A stretch of DNA of 64,000 nt from contig WGMG01000002.1 in assembly GCA_016125185.1 (NCBI GenBank), positions 310,001 to 374,000 of the forward strand. Direction: 5' to 3'. Origin of the DNA: Armatimonadota bacterium. GTDB taxonomy: Bacteria; Armatimonadota; Fimbriimonadia; Fimbriimonadales; Fimbriimonadaceae. Below are positions 30,893-41,423 of this stretch, one piece after another. A program made the translations under genes and the position numbers. The notes beneath the pieces are model-generated. The model was not told the origin of the DNA. It ran no database searches and saw nothing but the letters and a program-made list of their open reading frames with translations. Position 1 is the stretch's first letter; the number at the start of each line of letters is the position of its first letter.

Positions 30893-31822
30893 TTACTTTC
30901 TTCGGCGTCGAGCCAAGGCGAGAAGGCCAAGGCCGAGAACTGCAAAGCTGGCTGGCTCGGGAGCCGGTGTTGCGAAGCCCTGTACGACCACCACACGGTT
31001 GCCACCGCCGAAAGTCGAGAACAGGAAGTCACCGGTTACCGGATCGATGAACGCGCCCTCTGCTCCGCTCAGGCCATTCATGAAGACCTTACGCGACGCT
31101 TCGATCGGATCGCCATTCGCATCGACGTCGTAGGTGCTGACCACGCCCGCCGAATACTCAGACACGAGCATCGAATCGCCAAACAGAGCCGATCCAAGCG
31201 GAACATAGACGAAGCCCTCAGGGCCACCCGACAGAGTCGCGGTCTGCGTGAGCGCCGTAATGTCGAAGAGCCCCATCCCATCGGGAGAATAGGTGGCATC
31301 ATAGAACTGGCCGCCGCTCCAACTGGAGACCTTCATTCGTCCGGCAAATGTCCGACCGGCAGGTCCGAAATTGACCGCGCTGTGCGAACTGGCCGCGCCG
31401 AGAGCGCCCATGTCGATCACCTTATCGGGAGATGTGCTTCCGGGAAGGTATTCGCTGAGCATGTTCACTGGCCACTGGGATGCAAAGAGCACGCCTCCGG
31501 GTCCATAGCAAACGCCACCGTCGTTGTAAGGAGCCTCAGCATACGTCGATGCAGTGCCCGTGAAGCCGTTGATGTGTCCATTCACATCGCGGGTCACTCC
31601 CACCGAGTAGAGCATTCCGGCCGAGCCGTTTGCGGCCCCACCGATGAGAAGCGTATTGTTGTCGCCCGCCAACAAAGTCAGGCCGCCGTAATTGGCGGGA
31701 ACGCCGTCGATGGACCCCAAGTCCGTGTAGCTGTAGGAACCCGCAAAATACGGGTCGATGGTTTGCGCATGCGCCATTGGAACCACCACGAACAAAGGAA
31801 ATGCATAAAGCAGTCTTTTCAT
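30893..31822 (-). CDS. PEP-CTERM secreted propeller-like protein
   Basis: A 309-residue secreted protein. It has a signal peptide (residues 1-19, ending AHA), a beta-rich body with repeated YSYTDLGSIDGVPANYGGL-like blades, and a C-terminal PEP-CTERM tail (PEPASFAVLGLGLLALARRRRK). The tail should target it to an exosortase for surface attachment. The ribosome-binding site is GAGGGG and a -10 box TATACT lies at 31847-31852 on the minus strand. No enzymatic motif is seen. Confidence 0.88.
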   Translation of the reverse strand: MKRLLYAFPLFVVVPMAHAQTIDPYFAGSYSYTDLGSIDGVPANYGGLTLLAGDNNTLLIGGAANGSAGMLYSVGVTRDVNGHINGFTGTASTYAEAPYNDGGVCYGPGGVLFASQWPVNMLSEYLPGSTSPDKVIDMGALGAASSHSAVNFGPAGRTFAGRMKVSSWSGGQFYDATYSPDGMGLFDITALTQTATLSGGPEGFVYVPLGSALFGDSMLVSEYSAGVVSTYDVDANGDPIEASRKVFMNGLSGAEGAFIDPVTGDFLFSTFGGGNRVVVVQGFATPAPEPASFAVLGLGLLALARRRRK

Positions 31823-32083: not shown

Positions 32084-32089
32084 TATACT
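32084..32089 (+). promoter_or_regulatory. -10 box for the osmolyte operon
   Basis: TATACT here puts the transcription start near 32096, at the 5' edge of the riboswitch. No good -35 hexamer is visible at the usual distance. Confidence 0.6.
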
Positions 32090-32094
32090 GTTCC

Positions 32095-32280
32095 TCAATG
32101 CCGAATCGGTCCCGAAGGGCCGAACGGGGGAACCGAACCGAATTTCTTGGGGTGTATCGCAGTTTGATGCGTAGGACAGCACTCAGTCCAAACCCGACAG
32201 CTAACCTCGTAGGCGATCATATAGGTGCAGCTGAGGCGAAATCTCGTCCCTTTGTACCTCACGACTAAAAACCGGGAGGT
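32095..32280 (+). ncRNA. Cyclic-di-AMP riboswitch (ydaO/yuaA type)
   Basis: The leader has the conserved pieces of the ydaO/yuaA class in order: GGGGGAACCG (32126-32135), GGGGTG (32149-32154) and the diagnostic CCCGACAGCTAACCTCGT (32193-32210) followed by AGGCG. CCTCA (32093-32097) can pair with TGAGG (32232-32236) as a possible outer stem. This RNA class binds cyclic-di-AMP and usually turns expression off. In the 3' part ACCTC (32256-32260) can pair with GAGGT (32276-32280) in the ribosome-binding site, so control may be at translation. It precedes an osmolyte-transport operon, a known target class of this riboswitch. Confidence 0.9.
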
Positions 32281-32283
32281 TAA

Positions 32284-33162
32284 ATGCAAACAAATCAGGA
32301 CCGATCGATAGGCGGTTCGGTGTTGCCGCATAACAACACCAGTCATAAGCCATTTTCGGGCGAACTTCTGCTCGATGGTCCACTTCCAACCCCAGGTCGG
32401 CGACACGCCGTCCAGTTCCCACGAACGGACAATCATCGCCTGGACCAGGACGAGGCGTACTTCTATCTCGTCGAGGATGGCGAACGCAAGCGGATCCGCT
32501 TCCACGACTATGGAGAAATTTACCGACGCAAGGGCTTGTACGAACAGCTCTTCTACAGTCGGTTGAAGTGCTCGTCGCCTAAGCGAATGGCGGAATGGCT
32601 CTCGAAAGCGTGCATCGAAGCAGGCGAGCCGATGCAGACCATGCGCGTGCTTGACCTCGGAGCAGGCAACGGCATGATGGCCGAAGCGCTGCAGGCTTAT
32701 GGCGTGGCAAGAATCGTCGGTGTGGACATTCTGCCCGAAGCCAAACTGGCGGCCGATCGCGACCGTGCGGGAGTCTACGACACGTATTACGTTGCCGACC
32801 TTACGGCGCCCGGCACCAAACTCCAGTCCGAGTTGGAAGAGTGGGAATTTGACTGCCTGACCACCATCGCCGCCCTTGGCTTTGGCGATATTCCGCCTGC
32901 CGCGTTCATCAACTGCTACAACTTGGTGCGCGATGGAGGCTGGGTGTGCTTCAACATCAAGACTTCCTTTATGAGTGAGGCGGACCAAACCGGATTTTCC
33001 ACGCTCATAAGGCGAATGATGCTGAACGAAGCGATCGAAATCCACCGGATGATTCGCTACCGCCACCGATTCTCCATCGATGGCGAACCGCTGAGCTACT
33101 ACGGAATCGTGGGCCGCAAGCGAGGGGACATTCCGGAAACGGACTATGTCTCAATTGCCTGA
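32284..33162 (+). CDS. Class I SAM-dependent methyltransferase
   Basis: A 292-residue cytosolic enzyme. The SAM-binding motif I is LDLGAGNGMMAEAL near residue 124, followed by the acidic motif II (IVGVDILPEA) and the Asp of YYVADLT. An N-terminal extension contains IRFHDYGEIYRRKGLYEQLFY, shared by a set of related methyltransferases found near ABC transporters. It has GGGAGG 4 nt before the start, inside the riboswitch expression platform. Its substrate is unknown. As first gene of an osmolyte operon it could make or modify a methylated compatible solute. It overlaps the ATPase gene by 17 bp. Confidence 0.85.
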   Translation: MQTNQDRSIGGSVLPHNNTSHKPFSGELLLDGPLPTPGRRHAVQFPRTDNHRLDQDEAYFYLVEDGERKRIRFHDYGEIYRRKGLYEQLFYSRLKCSSPKRMAEWLSKACIEAGEPMQTMRVLDLGAGNGMMAEALQAYGVARIVGVDILPEAKLAADRDRAGVYDTYYVADLTAPGTKLQSELEEWEFDCLTTIAALGFGDIPPAAFINCYNLVRDGGWVCFNIKTSFMSEADQTGFSTLIRRMMLNEAIEIHRMIRYRHRFSIDGEPLSYYGIVGRKRGDIPETDYVSIA

Positions 33163-33931
33163 TCAGGGCGAACCCGTCGTAAGTCTTCGCAACGTTAGCA
33201 AGTCTTACGACGACGGTCAGACCTTTGCGGTGAAGGATGTCAGTTTCGACATCGAACGGGGAGAAGCGCTGGTGCTTCTCGGCTCTTCCGGCAGTGGCAA
33301 GAGCACCGTACTAAAGACCATCAACCGTTTGGTCTATCCGACTTCGGGGGAGGTCGTGATCCGTGGTCAGGATACGGCGAATGTCTCCACGGTCGAGCTG
33401 CGGCGCTCGATCGGGTACGTCGCCCAAGGCATCGCCCTCTTCCCTTTCCTTCCCGTCTGGGAAAACCTCGGGTTGCCGTTGCGGCTGAAGAATGTGGGCA
33501 AAGCCGAACGGCGGTCGCGCGCGATCGAGGCGATGTCCTGGGTGAGTCTCGCTCCCGAACTCGCCGACCGCATGCCTCAACAACTTTCTGGTGGTCAGCA
33601 GCAGCGCGTAGGCGTAGCGCGCGCGCTCTTGGCGGGGGCCGATCTTCTGCTGATGGATGAACCCTTCGGTGCTCTCGACGCAGTGACTCGAGAGTCTTTG
33701 CAGGAAGAGGTCGTGCGCCTAAAGACGGAGCGAAACGTGACTGTTCTCTTCGTGACCCACGACCTTTTTGAGGCACTCACCATCGCCGATCGAATCGGCG
33801 TCATGCACGAAGGCGTGCTAGAGCAGATCGGTCGTCCGGCGGAGATCATGGCGAATCCGGCAACGGACTTTGTCCGCAAGCTATTCGAGAAGCCACTTCA
33901 GCAACTTCAGACTCTGGGGAACCGCCAATGA
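33146..33931 (+). CDS. Osmoprotectant (glycine betaine/choline/carnitine type) ABC transporter ATP-binding protein
   Basis: A 261-residue OpuCA/ProV-like ATPase. It shows Walker A GSSGSGKST (46-54), a Q-loop near GYVAQGIALFPF, signature LSGGQQQR (about 146-153), Walker B LLLMDEPFGALD and switch His in FVTHD. OpuCA proteins usually continue into two CBS domains that sense osmotic state or cyclic-di-AMP; this one stops after the ATPase core, so that sensor is missing. It overlaps the methyltransferase (17 bp) and the permease fusion (4 bp). Confidence 0.92.
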   Translation: MSQLPDQGEPVVSLRNVSKSYDDGQTFAVKDVSFDIERGEALVLLGSSGSGKSTVLKTINRLVYPTSGEVVIRGQDTANVSTVELRRSIGYVAQGIALFPFLPVWENLGLPLRLKNVGKAERRSRAIEAMSWVSLAPELADRMPQQLSGGQQQRVGVARALLAGADLLLMDEPFGALDAVTRESLQEEVVRLKTERNVTVLFVTHDLFEALTIADRIGVMHEGVLEQIGRPAEIMANPATDFVRKLFEKPLQQLQTLGNRQ

Positions 33932-35478
33932 AGCTCTTCGACCTGCTCCACAGCCGAGCCGATGAGCTCAGTCTTCGCCTGGTAGAACATCTCAAACTCG
34001 CCTTGACGGCGACAGGGATCGCCGTCGTAGTCGGAGTCTCGCTGGGCTACCTCGCCGTCCGGTCGAAGCATCTGCGCGACACCGTTCTCGGCGTCGCCAG
34101 CATCCTGCAGACGATCCCTAGCCTTGCGCTTCTCACCTTTCTGCTTCCCTTTCTGGGCATTGGCACCACGCCAGCCATCGTGGCGCTGACGCTTTACGCC
34201 CTCCTGCCCATCGTGCGGAACACCTATGCAGGTCTCAGCCAGGCACCGCCCGCGATGATCGAGATGGCGAACGCGCTCGGCCTTTCGGGAACGCAAAAAC
34301 TGTTTTGGATCGAGGCCCGCTTTGCCCTGCCGTTCATCATCGCAGGCATTCGCACCGCGGCGGTCGTCAGCGTTGGCATCGCCACCCTTTCGGCCTTTAT
34401 CGGTGCCGGTGGGCTCGGCGTGTTCATCAACCGTGGACTCGCCATCAACAACACCGATCTCGTACTATTCGGCGCAGTTCCGGCCGGTCTGCTGGCCCTG
34501 TATATCGACTTCTGCCTGGCCACCGCCGAGGGCTATCTTAAGCCGCTACCCAAAAAGCTTCCGCTTGGCATCCAGTCCGGTGTGCTCGCTTTTCTCGCTC
34601 TGTTCACGGTTGTCGGACTACATTCACTGACCAAGCCCAAACTGGCGGCCATGAACACGGGCGACAAGGTCGTCGTTGGTTCGAAAAACTTCACCGAACA
34701 ATTGATTCTTGGACACATGATGGCGATTCTGCTGGAAGACAAATCCAACCTGCGTGTTGAACGAAAGCTCAACCTCGCCGGGACGGCAGTTTGCCAGCAG
34801 GCTCTGGTCGATGGCGGCATCGACATGTATCCGGAATACACCGGCACCGCGCTCCTGTCGGTCCTTAAAGTCGACGCTCCATCGGACGCCGACGAGGCTT
34901 GGAAGGTCGTTCAGGAGGAATACTCGAAGAAGTTCAACCTCGACTGGCTCCCCAAATTGGGTTTTGCTAACACGTATGCGCTGGCCGTACGATCAGAGCA
35001 AGCGGAGAAGAACAATTGGGAGACCGTTTCCGATCTTCAGCCCCAGGCAGGCAAACTCAAGGCAGGTTTCACCGCCGAATTCTTGGAGCGTGATGATGGC
35101 TATCCGGGCCTCAGCAAGCGGTACGGATTCAAGTTTGGGTCCACCGTCGATGTCGATCCCGGGCTGATGTACGACGCGGTTCACCTCAAGAAGGTGGACA
35201 TCGTTTCCGCCTTTTCAACCGATGGGCGAATCGCCGCCTACAATCTGAAACTTCTTGAGGACAATCGGCATTTCTTCCCACCTTACGACGCCGCCATCGT
35301 GGTTCGGCATGCTCTGCTCGAAAAACACCCCGAGGTTCGGGATATCCTTGAAAAGCTGTCGGGAAAGCTCGATGAGGCCACGATGCAGAAGCTAAACCTG
35401 GCCGTGGACCGAGATAAGCGCCAGCCCCGGGACGTCGCTCGCGAGTTCCTGGTCAAACAAGGCTTAATCGACAAATGA
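33928..35478 (+). CDS. Osmoprotectant ABC transporter permease fused to substrate-binding protein
   Basis: A 516-residue fusion of two normally separate parts. Residues 1-215 are a BPD-type permease with about five or six transmembrane helices and the EAA-like loop MANALGLSGTQKLFWIEARFALP. Residues 250-516 are an OpuCC/ProX-like binding protein, starting GSKNFTEQLILGHM and with the DMYPEYTGTALLSVL ligand-site region. The tether places the binding protein on the outer face of the membrane. It should import a quaternary-ammonium solute with the upstream ATPase. Start and stop both overlap neighbours by 4 bp. Confidence 0.93.
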   Translation: MKLFDLLHSRADELSLRLVEHLKLALTATGIAVVVGVSLGYLAVRSKHLRDTVLGVASILQTIPSLALLTFLLPFLGIGTTPAIVALTLYALLPIVRNTYAGLSQAPPAMIEMANALGLSGTQKLFWIEARFALPFIIAGIRTAAVVSVGIATLSAFIGAGGLGVFINRGLAINNTDLVLFGAVPAGLLALYIDFCLATAEGYLKPLPKKLPLGIQSGVLAFLALFTVVGLHSLTKPKLAAMNTGDKVVVGSKNFTEQLILGHMMAILLEDKSNLRVERKLNLAGTAVCQQALVDGGIDMYPEYTGTALLSVLKVDAPSDADEAWKVVQEEYSKKFNLDWLPKLGFANTYALAVRSEQAEKNNWETVSDLQPQAGKLKAGFTAEFLERDDGYPGLSKRYGFKFGSTVDVDPGLMYDAVHLKKVDIVSAFSTDGRIAAYNLKLLEDNRHFFPPYDAAIVVRHALLEKHPEVRDILEKLSGKLDEATMQKLNLAVDRDKRQPRDVAREFLVKQGLIDK

Positions 35479-36584
35479 TACCGACGTTCACCGTGGCAAC
35501 CCTCGTTGTAAAGCAGGAATGGCTCCGCGCCGGAGGCATCATGCTCGCGTTCCTCCTCGGGTGGCTGATCATCGCCGTCATCGGCAAGAAGATCTTCAAG
35601 AAACTGGTCGCCAAGACTAATTCCCAACTGGACGACATCATCCTTTCGGCCCTTCATGGGCTTGCCCAGTGGGCGGTCATCATCGCGGGCGCGTTCTTCG
35701 CCTTCCGCGAAGTCTCGGCCGCCGAACCGGAGACGACGATTTGGACGATGATCGGACGGGGTTTCACGATCGCCTGGATCATCCTGGCCATCGCCTCCGC
35801 GATCCGAATTTTCAATGCTTACTCGCAATGGAAGATCGAGCAGACGCTGGAGGTCCATGCCGACTCGCTTCGCGACGTAGCCACCCGAGTCCACTTCTTC
35901 CGCAAACTGCTTATTGCGGTCGTTGGCATCATCGGCGGACTCTACATTTTGTCGGTAGCCGGGGTCGATACGAGTCCGATCGTGGCGGGCGGCGCGGTTG
36001 GCGGTATCGTCATCGGTATTGCCCTACAGGACACGCTTTCGAACGTGTTCGCCGGGTTCTTCCTCAACATCGACCGCCCGGTCAAGATCGGCGACTTTAT
36101 TCGCCTCGAAAGCGGGCAAGAGGGGTTCGTCGAGGAAGTCGGCTGGCGCTACACCAAGGTTCGGCTTTATGCCAACAACCTCGTCATCGTCCCCAACCAT
36201 AAGCTGAGCCAGAGTACGATCACCAATTTCAACCTACCCAGCGGGCCGCTGTCGGTGTACATGACCTGCGGCGTTTCGTACGATAGTGACCTGGAATATG
36301 TCGAAGAAGTGGCGATCCGGGTCGCGCGGAACGTGCTTGAGACGGAGCCCGGCGGCGACACCGAGTGGGACCCGGTCGTGCGGTTCAAGGAGTTTGGCGA
36401 TTCCTCGATCAACTTCACAACCGTGCTTCGTGCGCTAGATGTGGACTCGCAGTACCGAATCCAACACCAGTTTGTGAAACAGCTTCATCGAGCGTTCAAC
36501 GAGGAAGGCATCGAAATTCCGTTCCCAATTCGGACCGTGATCATGAAGAACGATGGTCCGAAGAAGGAAGGGCCCTCACAGTAG
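35475..36584 (+). CDS. MscS-family mechanosensitive channel
   Basis: A 369-residue membrane protein. Three to four hydrophobic helices (roughly 18-40, 60-80, 90-110 and 135-165) are followed by the MscS pore-helix and beta-domain signatures: GGAVGGIVIGIALQDTLSNVFAGFFLNIDRPVKIGD, then the vestibule motif NLVIVPNHKLSQSTITNF. MscS channels release solutes on sudden osmotic downshift. Its ATGA overlap with the transporter gene and shared riboswitch put solute uptake and emergency release in one operon. Confidence 0.92.
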   Translation: MIPTFTVATLVVKQEWLRAGGIMLAFLLGWLIIAVIGKKIFKKLVAKTNSQLDDIILSALHGLAQWAVIIAGAFFAFREVSAAEPETTIWTMIGRGFTIAWIILAIASAIRIFNAYSQWKIEQTLEVHADSLRDVATRVHFFRKLLIAVVGIIGGLYILSVAGVDTSPIVAGGAVGGIVIGIALQDTLSNVFAGFFLNIDRPVKIGDFIRLESGQEGFVEEVGWRYTKVRLYANNLVIVPNHKLSQSTITNFNLPSGPLSVYMTCGVSYDSDLEYVEEVAIRVARNVLETEPGGDTEWDPVVRFKEFGDSSINFTTVLRALDVDSQYRIQHQFVKQLHRAFNEEGIEIPFPIRTVIMKNDGPKKEGPSQ

Positions 36585-36670: not shown

Positions 36671-37210
36671 ATGTTGCTTGCCGCCGTCGCAGTCGGATTC
36701 ATGCTCGTATCTGAGCCGAACTCGCAGGCCGTGTTTGCCTACGACGCCGTCAAAGCTATCCTCAGCGGCGAATCGCCCCAGCTCCCCACCACCAAGACCG
36801 CCAGCCACGGTGTATTCATTACCATCGAATCCCAAGGCAAGATTCTCGCTTGCCGAGGTGCACTCGAAGCCACCGAGCCAACCCTCGAACAAGAAATCCT
36901 CTCGACCACACGCTCGGCTTGCCAATTCGACCCTCGCTACCATCAGGTTCGAATCGACCCCGGCAAGCCATTCAATGTCACCATCACCATCGTCCGACGC
37001 CAAGAAGCGATCGACTCAGTCCGAACTCTTCAGCCGAAGGACGGGCTCGTGCTGCGCTCATCGTCGGGAGTCGGAGTCGTCCTCCCGTGGGAAGGTCGCA
37101 ACCCCGACACCCGCCTGTCCTGGGCGTACCGGAAGGCTAAAACGCCCGAAGGAACCTCCGTCAGCCTCAAACGCCTGATCGCCGACCGTTATCGCTACCC
37201 GGAACCCTAA
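36671..37210 (+). CDS. Exported AMMECR1-like protein
   Basis: A 179-residue protein. The N-terminal MLLAAVAVGFMLVSEP is hydrophobic like a signal segment. The body follows the AMMECR1 fold: KILACRGALE, a helix leading to STTRSACQFDPRYHQVRI, FNVTITIVRRQEAI and the C-terminal GLVLRSSSGVGVVLPWEG. AMMECR1 proteins are normally cytosolic and of unclear chemistry, so an exported form is unusual. The ATG at 36671 has AAGGAG 8 nt upstream; a GTG at 36641 would add a basic leader. The alpha-2-macroglobulin gene follows after 4 bp, so they are likely one operon. Confidence 0.78.
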   Translation: MLLAAVAVGFMLVSEPNSQAVFAYDAVKAILSGESPQLPTTKTASHGVFITIESQGKILACRGALEATEPTLEQEILSTTRSACQFDPRYHQVRIDPGKPFNVTITIVRRQEAIDSVRTLQPKDGLVLRSSSGVGVVLPWEGRNPDTRLSWAYRKAKTPEGTSVSLKRLIADRYRYPEP

Positions 37211-37214
37211 AACC

Positions 37215-40200
37215 ATGCTTGCCGCCATTACGCTTGCCGCTATCCTTGCTTCGCAGACACCCCAGGCCAAAGCCGCCAAAGCCGCCAAAGTCGCGAAGCC
37301 AGTCTCAACCGAGGTCAACCTCTTCATCGCTGGCAACGTGGCTCCATCAGCCAAGATTCACCTCTTCGTGAACTCGAAGAACGTACGCCAGGTTCCCATT
37401 CGCATCTACAAACTACCGCTCGAAGATCTGCGACACCAGTACGACCCCCGGCGGACCAAACCAACACCTGGTGGCCGCCCCGTTCGAAGTTTCAGTCTGG
37501 ATGTCGCGGGCAAAAAGAAGACCCTGCCCGCTCCGCAGGACACATACTATCAGCGGCAATCCAATATCCTGAACTTGCCACCCGGCTACTATCTGATTGA
37601 AGCGCCCGGCTACAAAGGCCAAGCGTGGGCGACGATGAACGTGACTAACCTGTCGATCATCGTGAAGCGCGGCGAGAAGCACGCCCTCACCTGGGTGACC
37701 GACTATAAGTCGGGCCGAGCGGTCTCCGGTGCGACGATCATCACATACCGCGATGGAAAACAGTCAAAGACCGGACAAACCGATCGCGAAGGCATTTCGA
37801 CTCTCGACATTCCGCCTGGGCAGGACGTTGTGGTCGTGAAGACGGGCCGCGACGCGGCGGCGGTCAGTGTGGTCGGCACGACCCGCGAGGGGCAAGTGGT
37901 CAGCCATATGCAGTTCGACCGGCCAGTCTACCGACCCGGCCAAACCGGCATGTTCAAGGCGATTCTGCGCCGCATCCACGGCCTTGGCTACTCGCCCATC
38001 GCGAACGATTCAGTCACGATGGAGCTGTTCGATTCGCAATCGACCTTGCTGGACCGCCAAGAACTCAAAACGACAGCGATGGGCACGGTCGCCGGTAGCT
38101 TCAAGCTCCCCAAAGAAGGCGGCCTCGGCTACTACTCGGTCCATCTTCGTAAAGGCGACGAAAGTCTTGCCTACGAAGACTTCCAGGTCTCCGAATACCG
38201 CAAGCCTGAATTCAAAGCGACGTCCGAGTTCTCGCAAAAGCGATACCTGTCCGGTGAGCCGATCAAGCTGAAACTGTCAACCGAATACTACTTCGGGGCT
38301 AAGGTGCCCAACGCCCGCGTGCAAGTGATGGTTCGCCGCTCGCCGATGTCGTGGGGCGGAGGTGGATTCGAGTATTCGGATGGCAACCTCTATGCGGGCG
38401 ACACCTACGCGGCCAACCAGGTCGTTCTGAACGACTTTCGGACCACGGCGGCGGACGGTACGCTCCAGATCGAGATTCCAACGACCAGCGAAGCGACCGA
38501 TTTTCAATACTCGTTCGACTTCACGATCACTGACGGCGCAAATCGGCAGATCAAGAATGCGGCCTCGATTCCGGTCTACGCTGCCTCAATCCGCACCTCG
38601 GCCGAGCCGACGGTCGGCTATGTGCCGCTTGGCCGCCTGCTCCCGCTCGAAGTCCGGCTCGCCGACCTCGATGGCAGACCAGTTAGCGGACAAGTGACCG
38701 TCGAGCTTCGCCACAGTGTGTGGGACGAAAAGCAGAAGCGCAACATCGAGCAGACGCTGGAAAGTACGACGGTGCAGGTTCCCGTGAGCGGAAAGGTGAA
38801 GGCATCCATCCCCGCCAAGGAGCGCGGCTACCTCTCGATCGTCGCAACGGCCAAAGACTCCGGCGGTCGTGTAACCCGATCCCGAAGCGGAATCTATGTC
38901 GCCGATCCGTTCTCCGAGCCCGACGAGCAGAAGAAGCCGCCGAACGTCAATGTCCGATTGGAAAAGAAGGACTACGTGTTGGGCGATACGGCTCAGGGGT
39001 TTGTCGAATCGAACCGTCCCGGCCATCCGATCCTGCTCACGATGGAGAGTTCGGACCTGATCTCGTACAAGATATTGAGCAAGCCGGGCCCGTTTTCCTT
39101 CAAGCTGGACGCCCCTTCCAGCCCGAATATGACCTTCGCCGTCAGCCAATGGGTTGAGGGCGGGCACTACTCGGGTGGAACCATGGTTCGCGTGGTTGAC
39201 CCGGCCCGACGCCTTCAGGTCTCGGTAAAGCCGGACAAGACCGAAGTCGCCCCAGGCGACCACACCAAGTACACCGTCGAGACCCGCGACTCCAACGGCA
39301 GACCGATCAGCGCCGAGGTTGGACTTCAGGTCATCGACGAAGCGATCTATGCCGTGCAACCCGACCAAACCGCTAACCTGATCGATACATTCTGGGGCTA
39401 CCGCGAACCGGGCGTGCAGACCGTCGATTCGGCCCCGCAGGAAATGTCAGGCGGCGCGTACCAGATGCAGAAAAATGCGAACAAGGACGCTCCGATGCGA
39501 ACTCAGTTCGTAGACACCGCCTATTGGAACCCGTTCGTCCAAACCGGTTCCGACGGCGAAGCGACGGTTGAATTCGATATGCCGGGCAATCTGACGGCTT
39601 GGCACACGACCGCCCGAGCGGTCACCGAGAGCACACAAGTCGGTCAAGCCGAAGCGATGACGCGCTCAAGCCGACCGATTACCTTGCGCCTCGCCACTCC
39701 TCGCCAGATGGTGGTCGGCGACAAGCTCGACCTGATCGGCACCGTCACCAACCGAACGACCAATCCGCAAAGCGTTCGGGTGCAGGTCAAAGTTGGCGAC
39801 GAGACGCAGAACTACCAGGTCTCGGCTCCGGCCACCGGCGACGCAAAGGTTCATATCCCGCTCGATGCCAAGGCGTTGGGCAACCTACCCGTACGCGGCG
39901 AAGTGTTCGACGCTAGCGGAACCCGGTTGGATGGGCTCGAAGTCGGCGTGCCGGTCAACCCGAACGGCGTTCCCTTCCGCGAGGTCACCGCAGGACGAAC
40001 CAAGGGCGGAAAGATTCCCTATACCGTGCCTGCCGACGGCATCTTCGGGTCCCAAAGCGCCAAGGTGCGCTTCTATCCAGGGGCGAAAGCCATGCTTCCC
40101 GTCATCGAGCGAAACCTTCTCGATTCGTCGCGGTACACGCCAATCGTCGCGGCCGAACAGGTCGAAGTCGCGGCGGGCCAGAACATTCCCTGGATGGATG

Positions 40201-41423
40201 ACCGAATCCGCGAGCCGATCGCGATGCTGGGTCGCACTCACCAGTCGACCGGCTGGGGATGGTGGGACGAAGGTTCGCCCGATCCGGTGATCACCGCCCG
40301 CGTCCTGCGCGGACTGGCAGCGACAAAGAACTATCCCGAATGGGAGGCTCTGCGCGGCAGTGCCCGCTCGGCGGCTGAGTACCAGTACGGTCACGTGCAG
40401 TTTGCCGAATACCGGGCGCTCCTGGTCGAAGCCCTCGCCTTGGACGGTTCGGATAAGGCCAAGCCATGGACGGCCGAGGTGGACGAATCCAAGACGCCGA
40501 TTTCGCCGACGGCCCAGCTTGCCCTTGCCAATGCGCTCGCGCTCACCGGCAATACGGCCCGGGCCAAAGAGAGGGTGACCGCCCTCACGGCACTCGTGTC
40601 GCGAGGTACGACCAGCTTCCTGCCCGTTGGCAACGGCGTGGGATGGACCGGAAGCGAGTTGGAAGCCAACGCTCGCTTGCTCGACCTTCTGCTCCGCCTT
40701 GATTCTGACAACCCGATCATTGACGGGCTCGCCGATTGGGTCATCGCTCACGCCTCCTCGTACATGGGTCCCGGCGACTCCATCGCCGTCCTTCGGGCGA
40801 TCCACCGGTATTCGGACGCTCGACCGTCCGCCGACCGCGTCGGAACCCTGCACGTCAAGGCCAACGGCGTCGAGGTTCCGGTAACCCGACAGCCCGACGG
40901 AGAGTGGGCCGAAGCCGACATTCCTGCCGACGCGGTCGGAAAAGCAATCGAAGTCGATGGCGTCGATCAGCCTCTACGCTACGTGCTGGAAGCAAAGGCC
41001 TACCACAAGGCCGAGAACGAGGTCAGTAACGGCATCCGAACGATGATCCGCTGGGAGGTCATGAACCAGGCGGGATCATGGGAAGAGCTGAACCGCGCGA
41101 TCAAACCGAACGAACCCATTCGGGTTTCGGCGATCGCCTGGGGCGACTCGGTGACCGACGCCGTTCGCGTCGTGATTCCGATTCCCGCTGGGTTCGAATA
41201 CGTCGATCAGGATCGACTGACCTACGCTCGCCAAGAGGTTCGCGATGGAGCCGTGATCTACTACACCGTGCTGGCCAACAGCTTGCCCGCCACCTTCCGC
41301 TTCTACCTCCGCGCCGAATCGGACGGAACAATATCCGTTCCCGCCGCCATGGTCGAGGCGATTCGCCGAGCCGAGGTACACGGCAACAGCAACGCCCTCA
41401 GCGTAACCGTCAAGGGAGAGTAA
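37215..41423 (+). CDS. Bacterial alpha-2-macroglobulin family protein lacking the thioester
   Basis: A 1402-residue exported protein. A signal peptide is followed by macroglobulin-type beta domains (KPVYRPGQTGMFKAILRR-like FDRPVYRPGQTGMFKA near 235; SEYRKPEFKA near 330), a bait-region-like area, the A2M core (AYWNPFVQTGSDGEATVEFDMPGNLTAWHTTARAVT near 775) and the helical TED domain. Where a thioester protein has GCxEQ, this one has VAAEQ (about 976-981), with the reactive Cys replaced by Ala. It would trap or bind proteins without covalent capture, like the thioester-less YfaS type. It ends in an A2M receptor-like domain. Confidence 0.92.
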   Translation: MLAAITLAAILASQTPQAKAAKAAKVAKPVSTEVNLFIAGNVAPSAKIHLFVNSKNVRQVPIRIYKLPLEDLRHQYDPRRTKPTPGGRPVRSFSLDVAGKKKTLPAPQDTYYQRQSNILNLPPGYYLIEAPGYKGQAWATMNVTNLSIIVKRGEKHALTWVTDYKSGRAVSGATIITYRDGKQSKTGQTDREGISTLDIPPGQDVVVVKTGRDAAAVSVVGTTREGQVVSHMQFDRPVYRPGQTGMFKAILRRIHGLGYSPIANDSVTMELFDSQSTLLDRQELKTTAMGTVAGSFKLPKEGGLGYYSVHLRKGDESLAYEDFQVSEYRKPEFKATSEFSQKRYLSGEPIKLKLSTEYYFGAKVPNARVQVMVRRSPMSWGGGGFEYSDGNLYAGDTYAANQVVLNDFRTTAADGTLQIEIPTTSEATDFQYSFDFTITDGANRQIKNAASIPVYAASIRTSAEPTVGYVPLGRLLPLEVRLADLDGRPVSGQVTVELRHSVWDEKQKRNIEQTLESTTVQVPVSGKVKASIPAKERGYLSIVATAKDSGGRVTRSRSGIYVADPFSEPDEQKKPPNVNVRLEKKDYVLGDTAQGFVESNRPGHPILLTMESSDLISYKILSKPGPFSFKLDAPSSPNMTFAVSQWVEGGHYSGGTMVRVVDPARRLQVSVKPDKTEVAPGDHTKYTVETRDSNGRPISAEVGLQVIDEAIYAVQPDQTANLIDTFWGYREPGVQTVDSAPQEMSGGAYQMQKNANKDAPMRTQFVDTAYWNPFVQTGSDGEATVEFDMPGNLTAWHTTARAVTESTQVGQAEAMTRSSRPITLRLATPRQMVVGDKLDLIGTVTNRTTNPQSVRVQVKVGDETQNYQVSAPATGDAKVHIPLDAKALGNLPVRGEVFDASGTRLDGLEVGVPVNPNGVPFREVTAGRTKGGKIPYTVPADGIFGSQSAKVRFYPGAKAMLPVIERNLLDSSRYTPIVAAEQVEVAAGQNIPWMDDRIREPIAMLGRTHQSTGWGWWDEGSPDPVITARVLRGLAATKNYPEWEALRGSARSAAEYQYGHVQFAEYRALLVEALALDGSDKAKPWTAEVDESKTPISPTAQLALANALALTGNTARAKERVTALTALVSRGTTSFLPVGNGVGWTGSELEANARLLDLLLRLDSDNPIIDGLADWVIAHASSYMGPGDSIAVLRAIHRYSDARPSADRVGTLHVKANGVEVPVTRQPDGEWAEADIPADAVGKAIEVDGVDQPLRYVLEAKAYHKAENEVSNGIRTMIRWEVMNQAGSWEELNRAIKPNEPIRVSAIAWGDSVTDAVRVVIPIPAGFEYVDQDRLTYARQEVRDGAVIYYTVLANSLPATFRFYLRAESDGTISVPAAMVEAIRRAEVHGNSNALSVTVKGE

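Follow-up and report, generated by a model that had tools for sequence, protein, structure and literature searches.

Characterized riboswitches for cyclic diadenosine monophosphate (c-di-AMP) are OFF switches (PMC9337991, PMC7288161). In Gram-positive bacteria, c-di-AMP inhibits the transporter OpuC via the CBS domains of OpuCA (PMC5919688). Clusters that encode betaine synthesis by methylation join gsmt-sdmt to a betaine/proline ATP-binding cassette (ABC) transporter, as in marine Synechococcus/Prochlorococcus, or to sams and sahh, as in Methanohalophilus (PMC3176816). Here, we report a locus from an Armatimonadota bacterium (Fimbriimonadaceae; assembly GCA_016125185.1, contig WGMG01000002.1, positions 310,001 to 374,000 of the forward strand; this whole stretch of 64,000 nucleotides is called the window) in which a canonical c-di-AMP riboswitch probably controls a four-gene osmotic operon for betaine-type methylation, uptake by a transporter without CBS domains, and release through an MscS channel. 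Neither the riboswitch nor the transporter class is new in kind; the variation consists in the lack of CBS domains, the pairing with a methyltransferase, and the MscS gene, the last found in the window only. The features are, in window coordinates:

32089..32229, + strand, c-di-AMP (ydaO/yuaA) riboswitch aptamer (RF00379, 87.4 bits, E 5e-19)
32202..32208, + strand, UAACCUC, forming the 3' side of an aptamer helix; its partner in the Rfam structure is 32126-32129 with adjacent positions
32223..32260, + strand, predicted expression-platform hairpin with arms 32223-32229 and 32253-32259 (ViennaRNA folds)
32274..32279, + strand, putative Shine-Dalgarno sequence GGGAGG, before the ATG at 32284
32284..33162, + strand, class I S-adenosylmethionine (SAM)-dependent methyltransferase, MT1 family, 292 amino acids (Pfam Methyltransf_23/11/25)
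33146..33931, + strand, ABC ATPase of OpuC/ProV type, 261 amino acids, no CBS domain (Pfam ABC_tran)
33928..35478, + strand, permease fused to an OpuAC substrate-binding domain, 516 amino acids, predicted betaine importer (PF00528; PF04069, E 5.5e-68)
35475..36584, + strand, MscS-family mechanosensitive channel, YnaI/MscS-like, 369 amino acids (PF00924, E 4.3e-19; PF21082)

The covariance check gave a significant full-length match to RF00379, spanning model positions 1-134 of 134 and scoring well above the gathering score of 38 bits, and the ydaO/yuaA core that the first-pass annotation had placed at 32126-32210 lies inside it. The genome holds four RF00379 matches (71-92 bits), i.e., three besides the window copy, and it encodes a single diadenylate cyclase (PF02457, E 9.8e-39) of the CdaA type, with CdaA_N and DAC domains. 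Because of these four copies and the cyclase, the aptamer is not a chance match; the two items on which the annotation had let its riboswitch call depend, an RF00379 aptamer and a diadenylate cyclase gene, are both present. A PgpH-type phosphodiesterase (PF07697) was not found in this genome, and no search was made for GdpP. Judged from its sequence, the riboswitch is a real and canonical member of the c-di-AMP class, and the window RNA would be expected to bind two c-di-AMP molecules and to alter expression. As elsewhere in the RF00379 class, the aptamer is complete and stands ahead of osmolyte transport genes; it differs in that its host seems to lie outside Bacillota and Actinomycetota and that its leader has no recognizable terminator. 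The surprise expressed in the annotation at finding such a module "in an unrelated phylum" was overstated: RF00379 was found in 120 of the 291 genomes of the phylum, and therefore the riboswitch is normal for the lineage. A sigma-70 promoter scan 5' of the leader scored none, TATACT at 32084-32089 being -10-like only.

The first ATG with a good ribosome-binding site, at 32284, starts a run of four genes which overlap by 17 nt (methyltransferase/ATPase), 4 nt (ATPase/permease-OpuAC) and 4 nt (permease-OpuAC/MscS), so that the tight overlap described earlier holds and the end at 36584 is exact. The earlier description, by which one operon combines methylation with uptake (of quaternary amines) and with release through a mechanosensitive channel, is also supported, and its methyltransferase-ABC link recurs in relatives; the term "self-contained" needs trimming, since the operon has no precursor pathway.

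This recurrence involves two methyltransferase families. MT1 is rare (3 of the 291 phylum genomes). In another genus of the same family (genome G074), a riboswitch of 72.9 bits is followed by MT1, the ATPase and the permease/substrate-binding protein (SBP) in the window order, without MscS, and the three proteins are 66%, 62% and 62% identical to those of the window, respectively. Genome G062 has a window-like layout with a riboswitch of 78.2 bits, an ATPase of 59% and a permease/SBP of 54% identity, and a methyltransferase of a second family, MT2, whose alignment with MT1 is limited to the SAM-binding region. MT2 occurs in 6 of the 291 genomes and adjoins the ATPase and permease/SBP genes in all six. 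In one of them (G201, without riboswitch) the MT2-ABC operon is followed by metK, ahcY and an MttB homologue, and in two others (G051 and G049) the additional genes encode a ProA-like dehydrogenase (Pfam Aldedh) and a GCS2-family ligase. The pairing recurs in relatives and is therefore not an accident of neighbourhood; the METHYLTRANSFERASE link, i.e., two methyltransferase families beside one transporter type, points to a common solute for methylation and uptake, and metK and ahcY beside MT2 indicate bulk SAM-dependent methylation. The G201 genes metK-ahcY-mttB lie at L081:466-4462 (-); the MttB homologue has a PYLIS_3 match, and its gene contains runs of N. As in the gsmt-sdmt clusters, methyltransferase genes here adjoin a betaine ABC transporter or SAM-cycle genes. 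The differences are that there is one methyltransferase gene instead of two, that a riboswitch is in control, and that MT1 matches the solved putative SDMT 2o57 weakly (E 0.0056) while MT2 has no such match. In the fold search described below, the structure match of MT1 to this enzyme group is one among many tied class I folds.

It is possible, though rather unlikely, that the methyltransferase makes no osmolyte, but modifies RNA, a protein or a metabolite and stands in the operon through some relevance to osmotic stress or by chance. Several observations lean this way and away from a betaine-making role. The closest solved relative of MT1 is METTL27, whose substrate is unknown. As modelled (AlphaFold, mean pLDDT 79.4), the MT1 fold is a generic class I fold: NodS came first in the fold search (Z 15.1), dozens of class I structures were tied in the range Z 13.5-15.1, and the matches include N-methyltransferases as well as RNA and C-methyltransferases among many other class I enzymes; because so many folds are tied, the search gives no clue to the substrate. 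In one further phylum genome (G071) MT1 stands alone, and in three metagenome-assembled genomes (MAGs) of other phyla, two from Betaproteobacteria/Burkholderiales and one from Nitrospinia, it likewise has no betaine transporter adjacent. In plasmids, MT1 had no match; MT2 was found in two Streptomyces plasmids, in neither beside an ABC transporter. Against a non-osmolyte role speaks that in two genera this ABC operon begins with MT1, and that the essentially different MT2 adjoins this ABC system in six genomes, once together with metK and ahcY. We keep the reading that the enzyme would make or finish an N-methylated, betaine-type solute.

The direction of the switch is a separate matter. An ordinary OFF switch, by which high c-di-AMP (high turgor or potassium) would lower expression of solute synthesis and uptake, is somewhat favored, mainly from prior knowledge of the family, i.e., from the known logic of c-di-AMP riboswitches (PMC9337991) and of OpuC inhibition (PMC5919688). 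It also fits the terminator-like hairpins that 8 of 35 other leaders carry 3' of their aptamers (2% in shuffled sequences), and an element in the G062 leader, GAGGCGC...GCGCCTCTTTT, which looks terminator-like by eye, although the terminator scan did not score it. The window leader, however, shows neither an intrinsic terminator (no U-run follows the 32223-32260 hairpin) nor a ligand-dependent sequestering structure, and its fold suggests an ON switch. UAACCUC at 32202-32208 is the exact 7-nt complement of GAGGUUA at 32276-32282, a segment that includes the ribosome-binding site, and the 3' arm of the hairpin is predicted to pair alternatively with the same site via ACCUC at 32256-32260. In folds over five leader lengths and two temperatures, the predicted accessibility of the ribosome-binding site was 0.20-0.22 in free folding and 0.41-0.60 when the aptamer was removed from competition, the change going through the 32223-32259 hairpin. 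If the switch is translational and ON, bound c-di-AMP would hold the 3' strand of the aptamer, the hairpin would form and the site would be freed, and in the ligand-free RNA ACCUC or UAACCUC would cover it. We consider this doubtful: accessibility in the G074 leader does not change consistently (0.20 vs 0.11-0.29), the hairpin might itself act as a terminator that lacks a U-run, the terminator-like elements of the other leaders fit OFF control, and the characterized members are OFF, through a terminator. An ABC importer turned on by c-di-AMP would, moreover, contradict the known logic, and so would count against this form of the operon. With no terminator in the window leader and no support from relatives, either direction is conceivable, OFF being the one we prefer on what is known of the family. 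The boldest version of the story, i.e., an ON translational riboswitch driving betaine synthesis, uptake and release in place of CBS control, with an undescribed family of osmolyte-making methyltransferases, seems improbable to us.

The transporter has the complete OpuC-type set of components, namely OpuAC (PF04069), a BPD permease and an ABC ATPase (Pfam), and no other transporter of this genome has an OpuAC domain. The label "OpuC" given earlier stands as to relatedness but not as to architecture: the transporter is made of two genes, one for the ATPase and one for the fused permease/SBP, and, unlike OpuCA, the ATPase has no CBS domains; against NCBIfam proV it scored 277 bits, under the cut-off of 326.6. 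Solved relatives of the permease/SBP include OpuCC, OpuBC, ProX and EgtUC structures. Please note that we assigned the pocket residues by motif spacing and by the residue roles described in PMC9732360, not by structure alignment. They form an aromatic quaternary-amine cage (Tyr304, Tyr350, Phe429 and Tyr453, with Asn348) and, with Lys253, Thr307 and Arg388, a cage and carboxylate site of eight residues, all invariant across four operons; the Lys/Thr/Arg of the window pocket are of carboxylate-binding types. Since these residues are present and the EgtU markers are absent, the predicted substrate is a betaine, not ergothioneine. That the protein is an EgtU-like ergothioneine importer, and the operon one for redox defence instead of osmotic balance, is very unlikely and was rejected, for although the protein shares the permease-SBP fusion with EgtU (and with OpuF) and reaches 193-197 bits against EgtUC structures, its scores against chains of the OpuCC/OpuBC type are higher (217-224 bits), and where EgtU has its specific residues Gly244, Phe293 and Tyr337, it has Phe255, Tyr304 and Phe346, as in betaine-type ProX.

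The window system thus shares with OpuC, OpuB and ProX an ATPase, a permease and an OpuAC-type SBP with a quaternary-amine cage, and it differs from them in that the SBP is fused to the permease and the ATPase ends before the CBS domains, which in OpuCA bind c-di-AMP, so that the c-di-AMP input would be at the mRNA. None of the ATPases in the riboswitch-led operons (window, G074 and G062) has a CBS domain by Pfam. Among operons without riboswitch, the ATPase of G201 has two, those of G051 and G049 one weak match each, and that of G249 none detected. These few cases suggest that RNA control replaces protein-level CBS control of the transporter. In three other loci (L094:9428-11137, L095:5673-7319 and L096:6406-8076), the permease-fused SBP domain is apparently circularly permuted, the C-terminal half coming before the N-terminal half by the order of tblastn matches; Pfam agrees for the first.

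The MscS protein has the second and third MS_channel domains and matches solved MscS/YnaI channels with E values down to 3.5e-27. Its gene is missing from both other riboswitch-led operons and is window-specific among the operons examined, i.e., conservation of the module does not extend to MscS, which weighs against release as a fixed part of it. The phylum offers a second case of an MscS gene behind this RNA: in genome G241, the gene next downstream of a c-di-AMP riboswitch encodes an MscS-family channel (L023:195-1343, -).

In this phylum, 25 genes downstream of c-di-AMP riboswitches were sampled from the best-scoring loci and annotated with Pfam; they include HisB (8), STAS (4), DapB (3), NlpC/P60 (2), lysine 2,3-aminomutase (1) and an MscS channel (1). 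Of such targets, cell-wall hydrolases and osmolyte genes agree with the known c-di-AMP regulon (PMC7288161, PMC9337991, PMC3766115). The hisB loci (imidazoleglycerol-phosphate dehydratase) include one of the same genome (L006:7597-7738, which is C6:1175596-1175737, -), whose leader has a terminator-like hairpin, and also L011, L014, L020, L030, L031 and L037; in L030, hisH apparently comes next after hisB. No earlier report of the riboswitch-hisB arrangement was found in the literature searched. The two remaining riboswitches of this genome lead small unassigned open reading frames (ORFs); a DUF1003 membrane protein follows the first (L007:4241-4372, +), and an orphan 132-amino-acid ORF with no Pfam match the second (L008:6702-6835, -).

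Downstream of the operon, after a gap of 86 nt, follow an AMMECR1-domain protein (36671-37210, +) and a bacterial alpha-2-macroglobulin (37215-41423, +). On the other side, the operon adjoins a gene for a PEP-CTERM protein (30893-31822, -), which by eye resembles another PEP-CTERM protein, whose gene lies some 2.4 kb away from MT1 in one of the Burkholderiales MAGs (L040:11112-12167, +); a shared transfer history is possible.

Combining these observations, we propose that c-di-AMP would act through the riboswitch on four presumably co-transcribed genes: the methyltransferase may supply the betaine-type solute, the ABC transporter may import or re-capture betaines of the same kind as its product, and the MscS channel may release the solute upon down-shock. 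Since the ATPase is without the CBS domains by which OpuCA binds c-di-AMP, control by c-di-AMP would have moved to the mRNA instead of the protein. We found no paper on a c-di-AMP riboswitch in Armatimonadetes, nor one on a ydaO riboswitch with a methyltransferase, a mechanosensitive channel and glycine betaine, though similar operons may have been reported before. The locus would extend c-di-AMP osmotic control to a phylum which has apparently been little studied for it, and would offer a natural case in which the c-di-AMP input to an OpuC-type transporter lies on the mRNA and not on CBS domains. The recurring pairing of a betaine transporter with two methyltransferase families points to an unassigned step of betaine biosynthesis.

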